Assembly: GCA_937891825.1 (NCBI GenBank)
Contig: CALAHN010000048.1
Coordinates: forward strand, 1 to 35,033
DNA: 35,033 nucleotides
Origin: an uncultured Alphaproteobacteria bacterium
Lineage (GTDB): Bacteria; Pseudomonadota; Alphaproteobacteria; Bin95
Reading direction: 5' to 3'
The translations under genes were made by a program, and so were the position numbers. Each line of letters starts with the position of its first letter. Positions within the stretch are counted from its first letter, which is position 1. Shown in pieces: positions 10,673 through 13,258 of this stretch. Below the pieces are notes generated by a model. It was not told where the DNA came from. It was given only the letters and a program-made list of their open reading frames with translations, and did not search any database.

Positions 10673-12166
10673 TCAGGTGCCGCAGAAGGTTTTGTAGGGG
10701 CTGTCCGATTGCGCCGCCGGCGCCGCATAGGCCTCATTGCCCGCCGCCTCTACGAAGGGCGCGGTCAGGACCGCGAGCAAGGCCTTGAACGGCCCCATGT
10801 CGTCGGCGTCGACGGCGGCGGCGAGCGCTTCTTCGACCTTGTGGTTGCGCGGGATATAGATCGGGTTGACCCGGTCCATCGCGGCCGCTCGGTCCGCAGC
10901 CGCGCCCGTCTCCACGGCGAGGCGCGCCCGCCATTCGACCAGCCATTGATCGAACGCCGCCGGATCGGCGAACGCAGCGCGGGCCGGCGCGTCGTCGCCC
11001 ATGACCGCCGCCGACAAGGCGCGGAAGGTTCGCGTGAAATCCGCGGCCCCCGCTTCCATGGTCGCCAGCAACGCCATCGCCAGATTGAAATCGCCCGGCC
11101 GCTCGCTCGCGAGGCCAAGCTTCGCCCGCATGCCGGCAAGCCAATGGCGGTTATAGGCGTCGGCGAAACTCTGAAGCGCGGCCGTCAGGCTGTCGATGGC
11201 CTTCGCTTCATCAGGATCGATGACAGGGATCAGGGTTTCCGCAAGCCGCGTCAGGTTCCATTGGGCGATCGAAGGCTGGTTGCCGAAGGCATAGCGGCCA
11301 TGTGTGTCGATCGAGCTGAACACGGTTCCGGTCGCATAGGCGTCCATGAAGGCGCAGGGGCCGTAATCGATGGTCTCGCCGGAAATGGTCATGTTGTCGG
11401 TATTCATGACGCCATGAATGAAGCCGAGGTTCATCCAGCGCGCCACAAGGCTCGCCTGGGCTTCGACCACGGCCTCGAAGAACGCAAGATAGGGGTTCTC
11501 GGCGGATTGGACGGCCGGGTAATGCCGCGCGATCGCATAGTCCGCGAGCTGCCGAACCTTGTCCCATTCCTGGCGGGCGGCGAAGAACTGGAACGTGCCG
11601 ACGCGGATATGGCTGGCTGAGATGCGCGTCAGAACGGCGCCGGGCAATGGCGTCTCCCGGTAGACGGTTTCGCCGGTCGCGACGGCGGCCAGCGCCCGGG
11701 TCGTCGGGACGCCAAGCGCTTGCATCGCCTCCCCGATCAGATATTCCCGCAAGACCGGACCGACGGCGGCCTTGCCGTCGCCGCCCCGGGAAAACGGCGT
11801 CTTGCCCGAGCCCTTGAGCTGGATGTCCCGGCGCTTGCCGTCGCGGTCGATCACCTCGCCCAGCAGCAGCGCCCGGCCGTCGCCCAGTTGCGGCGAGAAC
11901 CCGCCGAACTGATGGCCGGCATAGGCCTGGGCGATCGGCCGCGACCCTTCCGGCGCCAGATTGCCGGCGAGCATGGCGAGGCCGTCCGGCGATTGCAGCC
12001 ATGCGGCATCCAACCCCAGGTCCTCGGCGAGCGCCAGATTGAGCATCAGCAGCGCCGGCGCTGGCGCTTCTGCGGCTTTCCAGGGCACGAAAAAGCCTGG
12101 CAGCGCGCGGGCGTAGGTGTTGTCGAACGGAATTTGCGGACGCTCGACGGTATCCATGCTGCTCAT
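10673..12166 (-). CDS. selO: Protein adenylyltransferase SelO (YdiU/UPF0061)
   Basis: A 497-residue pseudokinase-fold AMPylase. SelO moves AMP from ATP, bound in flipped orientation, to protein Ser/Thr/Tyr and is tied to the redox stress response. Visible motifs: [19 protein letters not shown] (81-99), [16 protein letters not shown] with Lys118 (116-131), NTDNM with Asp257/Asn258 and [10 protein letters not shown] with the metal Asp267. The C-terminus is YKTFCGT: Cys495 sits third from the end, where eukaryotic SelO and some bacterial forms carry selenocysteine, and here the codon is TGC. The start at 12166 has AGGAG 8 nt upstream; an ATG-less extension to 12187 is unlikely. It lies 98 nt downstream of a putative selenoprotein gene on the same strand. 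Confidence 0.95.
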
Positions 12167-12264: not shown

Positions 12265-13080
12265 CTATTTCTTCAACTGCTTGGCCAGCGCTTCCGGCGT
12301 GGTTTCGCCTGCGAAATATTCGAACGGCTCTGGCCAGACATAGGGCAGATCGACCAGCACGCCCGGTTCGGGCGCCGTCGCCGCGAGGCCAAGCGCATCC
12401 CGCAGGATCCGCGTCTGCATCTCGCGGTCGCGCGGCCGGCCGAATGTGTTGCCCATCGGGAAATTCACGAACACGCTGCGCGGCGGCCGCACCAGCGCCG
12501 TGATATCCCGTCCTGTCGAAACCGACACCGTCGGTATGCCGCTTTCCTCAACGACGCGCGCGACCAGACCCACGGTCTGGTGATCGAGCGGTCAAGCAGG
12601 GATCGCGACCAGGAGGTCGACGCCGTCGTCATGCAGCGACTGGGCGAAGGCGGGCCCGGACTCGTTGATGACCTTGCTGCGATTGTAGGTGCGGCCCATG
12701 AAGCCGCTCCAATGGCGCCTGGCGACGCCGCCGATCTCGCCGTCGGCCGCAAGCTCCTTCAAGCGGTCGAGCGGGAAGAGGCAGTTCAGGTCCCGTCCGG
12801 CGTCGGTGTGATCGTAATAGCTGTCGTGGATCTGATACTGATCGAGCGGCGTATCGACGTCGATCGCATCGACCCGATGGTCGTTCCGCGCATTGGCGTC
12901 GAACGGCACGGCCGAGCAATGGGAAATGCCGCCGCTGACGAGCAACGCCACCGTGCATTCCGCCAAGGGTTTCGTCATCGGCGTCCATGGCGCGTCTTCG
13001 TTGACGCTCCATTGGTAGGGCGGGAAGCCCATACTGCCGTATTTGTTGTTGAGCGCCTCGACATACCGGATCGGGTCCAT
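12265..13080 (-). CDS. GrdB/PrdB-like reductase family selenoprotein with in-frame TGA (Sec163)
   Basis: 271 residues if TGA at 12594-12592 is read as selenocysteine (Sec163); conventional calling would split it into a 162-residue ORF and a fragment from about 12573. The family is the glycine/sarcosine/betaine/D-proline reductase selenoprotein B-like group. Before the TGA are [21 protein letters not shown] and [11 protein letters not shown]; after it are [19 protein letters not shown] and [15 protein letters not shown], all in one frame, ending at TAG. The residues around the TGA read VAIPA-U-PLDHQTV. From memory, Cys homologues have a CPVCHQT-like motif here, so Sec replaces the first Cys and Asp replaces the second. 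AAGGAGG lies 9 nt before the ATG. A SECIS-like hairpin follows the TGA. Reaction unknown; probably a thiol/selenol-based reductase. No selA/B/C/D in the window. Confidence 0.85.
12563..12581 (-). promoter_or_regulatory. Candidate bacterial SECIS hairpin
   Basis: In the mRNA, ACCAGACC (12581-12574) pairs perfectly with GGUCUGGU (12570-12563) around the loop GUG (12573-12571). The loop begins 18 nt after the UGA. Known bacterial SECIS elements lie just downstream of UGA, with the apical loop about 16-37 nt away and a G in the first two loop positions; E. coli fdhF has a GU there. This hairpin meets each of those points. Binding by SelB is inferred. Confidence 0.75.
12592..12594 (-). other. In-frame TGA, proposed selenocysteine codon
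   Basis: The plus strand reads TCA, so the minus-strand codon is TGA at codon 163 counted from ATG 13080. The frame before and after it is uninterrupted and conserved in character, and the true end of the gene is a different stop (TAG, 12267-12265). The next codons are CCG CTC GAT CAC CAG ACC GTG GGT. Confidence 0.82.
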
Positions 13081-13258
13081 CGGAATACGCCTCCTTCTCG
13101 CTGGGGATGTGCGGGCGAGCATCCCACATGCCGGAATTGGACGCCAGCCAGGGATTTCGTCTGGCGCTCGCCGGCCTTCCGGGCCATGCTGGCGACCCCC
13201 ATGGCCGCCGCTTGACCCAAGCGTTTCCAATCCGGCCTGAACCTCGGGAGACGCATCC

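Follow-up and report, generated by a model that had tools for sequence, protein, structure and literature searches.

A gene on the minus strand of the window, the stretch of 35,033 nucleotides analysed here, almost certainly encodes a real selenoprotein with selenocysteine (Sec) at codon 163, as judged from sequence comparison. The protein is a relative of PrdB and not PrdB itself, and it belongs to a clade in which the second cysteine of the UxxC motif is replaced by aspartate (UxxD). As far as literature searches go, this clade is an undescribed variant of a known superfamily, and the window protein probably catalyses an as yet undescribed reaction based on selenium. Selenium enzymes form a small set, and PrdB and GrdB are known from anaerobes whose amino-acid reduction involves a pyruvoyl partner. 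A clade in which most members keep Sec without the second Cys and, nearly always, without that partner suggests another use for the same selenium centre.

The UGA codon and its decoding

The gene occupies positions 12265..13080 (minus strand) and is preceded by a Shine-Dalgarno-like AAGGAGG (13090..13096, minus strand) 9 nt 5' of the ATG. A sequence-only reading of the window had described the frame from 13080 to 12265 as open except for a TGA at 12594-12592, closed by TAG and carrying recognisable family sequence on both sides of the TGA. The frame was indeed found to begin with ATG, to contain TGA in frame exactly once (12592..12594, codon 163) and to end with TAG at 12267-12265, and the NCBIfam model TIGR04483 (PrdB) spans residues 28-248 and so reaches across the TGA (E 3.4e-47). 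With Sec163 inserted, as that reading proposed, the product is 271 amino acids long; were the TGA a stop, residues 163-271 (109 residues) would be missing. A gene caller that takes TGA as a stop would shorten genes of this kind. The warning that conventional annotation would truncate the protein does not hold in general: clostridial prdB containing TGA is annotated at full length.

The codon aligned to TGA163 was compared codon by codon in 90 genes, comprising 4 from the window's own genome, 58 from the genome_contigs set and 28 from related whole genomes. It is TGA in 84, TGC in 5 and TGT in 1 of these genes, i.e., a Cys codon in 6 of 90, so that every homologue has either TGA or Cys at this position; the set includes near-copies, the L037 and L084 proteins being identical. 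Seven pairwise comparisons gave similar dN on the two sides of the TGA, 0.13-0.19 before it and 0.14-0.21 after it, with dN well below dS wherever dS was computable (upstream dS was saturated in two of the seven pairs).

The machinery for Sec insertion is present in the source genome, an assembly of 4.3 Mb in 163 contigs that is 99.97% complete. All four genes that had been named as the critical check, selA, selB, selC (tRNA-Sec) and selD, were found: the tRNA-Sec, with anticodon TCA, scored 71.5 bits against a cut-off of 47, and selB, selA and selD scored 423.8, 512.2 and 276.3 bits, respectively, all above their cut-offs. A wider survey for selB at a threshold of 1e-60 queried 50 of 58 loci and covered 49 genomes, mostly metagenome-assembled genomes (MAGs). 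Among the 44 genomes with a TGA homologue, selB was matched in 39 (38 over the curated cut-off) and gave no match at this threshold in five, mostly MAGs. It was still matched in three of the five genomes with a Cys homologue; the genomes of the Cys forms L056, which is complete, and L068 gave no match at 1e-60.

A SECIS-like hairpin with an 8-bp stem and a 3-nt GUG loop lies 11-29 nt after the TGA (12563..12581, minus strand), where the RNA reads CCAGACC-GUG-GGUCUGG. Because Rfam gave no match at gathering scores anywhere in the window, the element was judged by folding and comparison. The six outer pairs are all intact in 55 of the 56 Sec genes of the UxxD subfamily; at least one outer pair is broken in each of its five Cys genes, pair 18-26 in all five. 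The loop GU is kept in 56/56 Sec genes versus 1/5 Cys genes of the clade. At Gly171, whose codon falls within the stem, 55 of the 56 Sec genes use GGT (the 56th codes for Asp) and none of the five Cys genes does; GGT accounts for 18% of Gly codons elsewhere within the same Sec genes. One stem pair varies (GC in 49, AT in 5, GT in 2). Since the rows are related, probabilities attached to these comparisons are only nominal. The hairpin is less regular in the UxxC relatives that have a TGA: of 28, 17 have all six outer pairs, 9 have five and 2 have four. Synonymous redraws of the window gene folded the hairpin equally well in 116 of 5000 cases, and the weight therefore rests on the comparison, not on the single fold. 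SelB and tRNA-Sec would decode UGA163, aided by the hairpin just downstream. A broken gene, with the TGA arising by nonsense mutation or sequencing error, has nothing in its favour beyond the TGA itself. This reading was rejected, with negligible probability, since 84 of 90 genes, drawn from many assemblies, share the TGA at this codon, the hairpin is conserved, dN downstream is similar and the Sec machinery is present.

The UxxD clade among PrdB relatives

Family models place the window protein near PrdB and outside it. Its TIGR04483 score of 160.9 bits is below the curated cut-off of 300, and the annotated PrdB proteins of Peptoclostridium and Terrisporobacter score 310.2 and 424.7 bits with the same model. 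The Pfam GRDB model (PF07355) matches residues 24-156, before the TGA only, at 30.4 bits, over its gathering score of 22; one clade member, L068, lies slightly under that score at 21.8. The protein fails the GrdB, GrdF and GrdH models, with at most 36.1 bits against cut-offs of 602.2-800, as well as TIGR01918 (31.4 against 65.45). A sequence search of solved structures returned no credible relative, and phage records gave no match.

PrdB, the 26-kDa selenoprotein subunit of D-proline reductase, is homologous to the window protein over residues 28-248 with Sec in the same column, and the Peptoclostridium protein is about 38% identical to it. The two differ in that PrdB has UxxC where the window protein has UxxD, in falling into separate tree groups, in the score below the PrdB cut-off, and in the lack of a match to a PF09338 (pyruvoyl-type) partner in the window protein's own genome. 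PrdB is also without the N-terminal part, with conserved Y6, Y14, G18 and Y22, that the window protein shares with UPVCHQ paralogues. Assignment as a true D-proline reductase PrdB is not supported, given the score, the UxxD motif and the missing partner.

The UPLD motif, Sec163-Pro-Leu-Asp166, lies at 12583..12594 (minus strand) and has Asp at the position occupied by Cys in PrdB and the paralogues. Asp166, within a UPLDHQ motif, is invariant in all 57 UxxD rows, and the same column is Cys in 25/25 UPVCHQ, 4/4 UPNCTR-like and 3/3 PrdB rows. The clade is also invariant in SGFMGR (125-130) and at N66, D71, D86, Y89, N206 and M209; the other groups lack several of these residues. Cys42, Cys55 and Cys100 are present in 50, 43 and 49 of the 57 UxxD rows, respectively.

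The 57 UxxD rows group together, with support of 96/93, in a tree built from 91 proteins, and the three Bacillota PrdB proteins are separate from this group (100/100). The UxxC relatives also fall outside the group, and their own unity is unsupported (37/10). Sec is kept in 56 of the 61 rows of the clade. The five Cys forms (L049, L052, L056, L068 and L077) cluster together inside it at 92/91, just below the star of the tree tool, and this grouping suggests that a single change from Sec to Cys lies behind them. One of these, L056, comes from the complete genome of Kordiimonadales bacterium IMCC3096 and allows tests that require no selenium incorporation.

The source genome holds four PrdB-like matches including the window gene, each with one in-frame TGA. 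The three paralogues, L002 (contig C152) and L004 (C59) together with L003 (C44), carry UxxC motifs (UPVCHQ or UPNCTR) and belong to the same family; they differ from the window protein in keeping the second Cys, in their 32-39% identity to it and in their position outside the UxxD tree group. The L003 type is 424 amino acids long, with a long C-terminal extension.

Contigs of the clade are labelled Pseudomonadota, Myxococcota, Actinomycetota, Acidobacteriota and Hydrogenedentota. The record names cover alphaproteobacteria, gammaproteobacteria and a member of the Burkholderiaceae, together with Deltaproteobacteria (Myxococcota in the tree), Acidimicrobiia and other Actinomycetota, and one contig each of Lambdaproteobacteria, Acidobacteria and Hydrogenedentota; nearly all are MAGs, and isolated odd labels may therefore be binning errors. 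When 95 relatives were searched, 21 had any match and only three (the window's own genome, G001 and G040) had one above 50% identity, which makes the UxxD gene patchy in its distribution.

PrdB-type selenoproteins from marine metagenomes likewise come from marine bacteria in which the PrdB family is commonly found with Sec. The Sargasso Sea data yielded 42 PrdB Sec genes with the motif UXXC, known since 2005 (PMC1088965), and the GOS data yielded 235 Sec and 110 Cys members with the motif UxxC (PMC2398784). The idea of a PrdB-like selenoprotein outside the clostridia proved sound for the window gene but was not new in itself, since marine examples are described in the accessible parts of these two papers (PMC1088965, PMC2398784). 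The same parts give the family motif as UxxC with no UxxD, a distinction from the window protein that is drawn from their descriptions. Reviews, in the portions available, also list the PrdB motif as UxxC (PMC9312934, PMC13188914). Searches of the selenoprotein literature, with most subscription papers outside their coverage, found no report of a UxxD clade or of selenoproteins called 'PrdB-like'.

Genomic context and the possible reaction

The partner genes of classical amino-acid reductases were sought genome-wide. PF09338, the pyruvoyl partner of the GrdE/PrdA type, had no match in the window's own genome, in a search in which no named control matched either, and none in 48 of the 49 genomes holding homologues; it was matched in the remaining one, at 1e-140, and the model does detect PrdA (E 1.4e-22). 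GrdA (PF04723) also had no match across the own genome, again with no control matched in that search. No prd gene occurs among the window ORFs scanned or in the 25 most frequent families of scanned neighbours. The sequence-only reading had concluded that the gene does not belong to a classical amino-acid reductase, and this holds as far as the PF09338 and GrdA searches reach.

The classical scheme involves a Schiff base on the pyruvoyl group, attack by Sec, and resolution by the Cys of UxxC. With the adjacent Cys and the pyruvoyl partner both missing, it would not work as such here. In a predicted model of the protein (pLDDT 93.3, pTM 0.92), Sec163 follows a strand (156-160) and precedes a helix (164-179), and this position at the start of a helix can be interpreted as the usual place for a nucleophile. 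Foldseek returned nothing at E 0.001 or better, and the fold accordingly does not point to a reaction; the best VIA-align match was a LacI-type protein (Z 8.6, rmsd 7.6, 152 residues aligned), an arrangement that is common.

The reading preferred here, with a likelihood a little short of even, is that of a real, stand-alone UxxD selenoprotein whose lone Sec163 selenolate is recycled by an outside thiol or a non-adjacent Cys. The product would be a PrdB-related alpha/beta protein from a clade whose genomes, one of 49 excepted, have no pyruvoyl-type partner gene. A small organic substrate would be attacked at an electrophilic centre by the Sec163 selenolate, working as the only nucleophile, and a C-X bond (X being perhaps N, S, O or halogen) would be cleaved reductively; Asp166 and His167-Gln168 may tune or protonate the selenolate. 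The selenium adduct might then be freed by an outside thiol, e.g., glutathione or thioredoxin, or by one of the non-adjacent residues Cys42, Cys55 and Cys100, and not by an adjacent Cys; the frequency of these three residues among clade members leaves room for a dithiol-type mechanism that employs a distant Cys. More tentatively, the UxxD clade may have freed the PrdB fold from both its partner and its second Cys, so that the selenolate-Asp pair carries out a new C-X cleaving or other nucleophilic reaction.

A likeness may be seen in FarB of the proposed fluoroacetate reductase of Synergistota, which is described as a GrdB-family selenoprotein without a conserved CxxC; FarE is described as lacking the pyruvoyl-forming cysteines, and the authors propose that Sec attacks the C-F bond of fluoroacetate (PMC10838667). 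FarB differs in being GrdB-type and anaerobic and in sharing its operon with an antiporter, a radical-SAM protein and FarE, and the comparison draws on the accessible description only (PMC10838667). The precedent is only partial, because FarB keeps the GrdE-type partner FarE.

The surroundings of the gene bear on what else the protein might do. Mechanically called ORFs were clustered around 61 loci, and a Pfam scan covered 98 of the 105 neighbouring ORFs upstream and 101 of the 106 downstream (12 very long or fragmentary ORFs were omitted). Luciferase-like and TauD-like proteins each occur at 12 of the 61 loci, in positions and on strands that vary, and for this reason neither the clustering nor the Pfam scan of these loci supports a conserved operon. 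TauD/TfdA dioxygenases make up 6/98 upstream and 5/101 downstream ORFs scanned (11/199), luciferase-like monooxygenases 6/98 upstream ORFs, and O-methyltransferases 5/101 downstream ORFs. Within the window, a luciferase-like monooxygenase gene lies divergently upstream. These oxygenases, the commonest neighbours, are what would lend substance to a detoxifying selenol reductase or peroxidase (1-Cys-like). Its substrates would be peroxides, sulfoxides or further oxidised products of the oxygenases that lie near some copies, with an outside thiol as the reductant. That role is unlikely, however: the neighbour families are common generally, their share is small and no background rate stands behind the counts, and no thioredoxin-fold entry appears among the 50 Foldseek matches listed.

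The same neighbours count against a non-redox selenol, in which the protein would be a racemase, lyase or transferase whose acid-base or covalent catalyst is Sec163; Asp166 would be paired with it, and no resolving Cys would be needed. Such a role would fit the invariant Asp at the second-Cys position (57/57) and the lack of a recurring electron-donor gene among the neighbour families listed. It is nonetheless rather improbable, as the commonest neighbours are oxygenases and as the relatives with a known reaction, GrdB and PrdB, are reductase subunits according to the available part of a review (PMC13188914).

Very improbable is a PrdB subunit of D-proline (or other amino-acid) reductase whose PrdA-like pyruvoyl partner was missed. 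PrdB is the best-matching family (TIGR04483, E 3.4e-47), residues such as Y89, D97, N99, R106, M128 and G129 are common to both proteins, and PF09338 does occur in one of the 49 homologue genomes. Yet the score falls short of the cut-off and of both annotated PrdB proteins (160.9 against 300, 310.2 and 424.7 bits), UxxD stands in place of UxxC, the own genome and 48 of the 49 homologue genomes gave no PF09338 match with a model that detects PrdA, and prd genes were not found among the scanned window ORFs or the 25 commonest neighbour families.

Directly downstream of the window gene lies a gene for a SelO protein adenylyltransferase (10673-12166, minus strand). Among loci whose flanks are in many cases short, SelO adjoins a PrdB-like gene only here and on a Roseomonas plasmid (L114), where the PrdB-like gene is a Cys form, and a functional link was set aside, the adjacency being taken as chance for that reason.

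Other plasmids also carry members of the family. A Haematobacter plasmid (L113, 4001-4741) has a Cys PrdB-like gene with the motif CPIC, annotated as selenoprotein B family, which adjoins a class III aminotransferase gene and cobalamin genes. A Peptoclostridium plasmid (L112, 4935-5648) has an annotated prdB with the Sec motif UGTC and no prdA within the 5-kb surroundings shown.

The window's own genome looks rich in Sec genes. Beyond the PrdB-like genes, it holds five UGSC-family matches (L117-L121, on contigs C112, C72, C4, C104 and C12, respectively), two of them over the cut-off and each with one in-frame TGA; the match on C104 lies close to selD.
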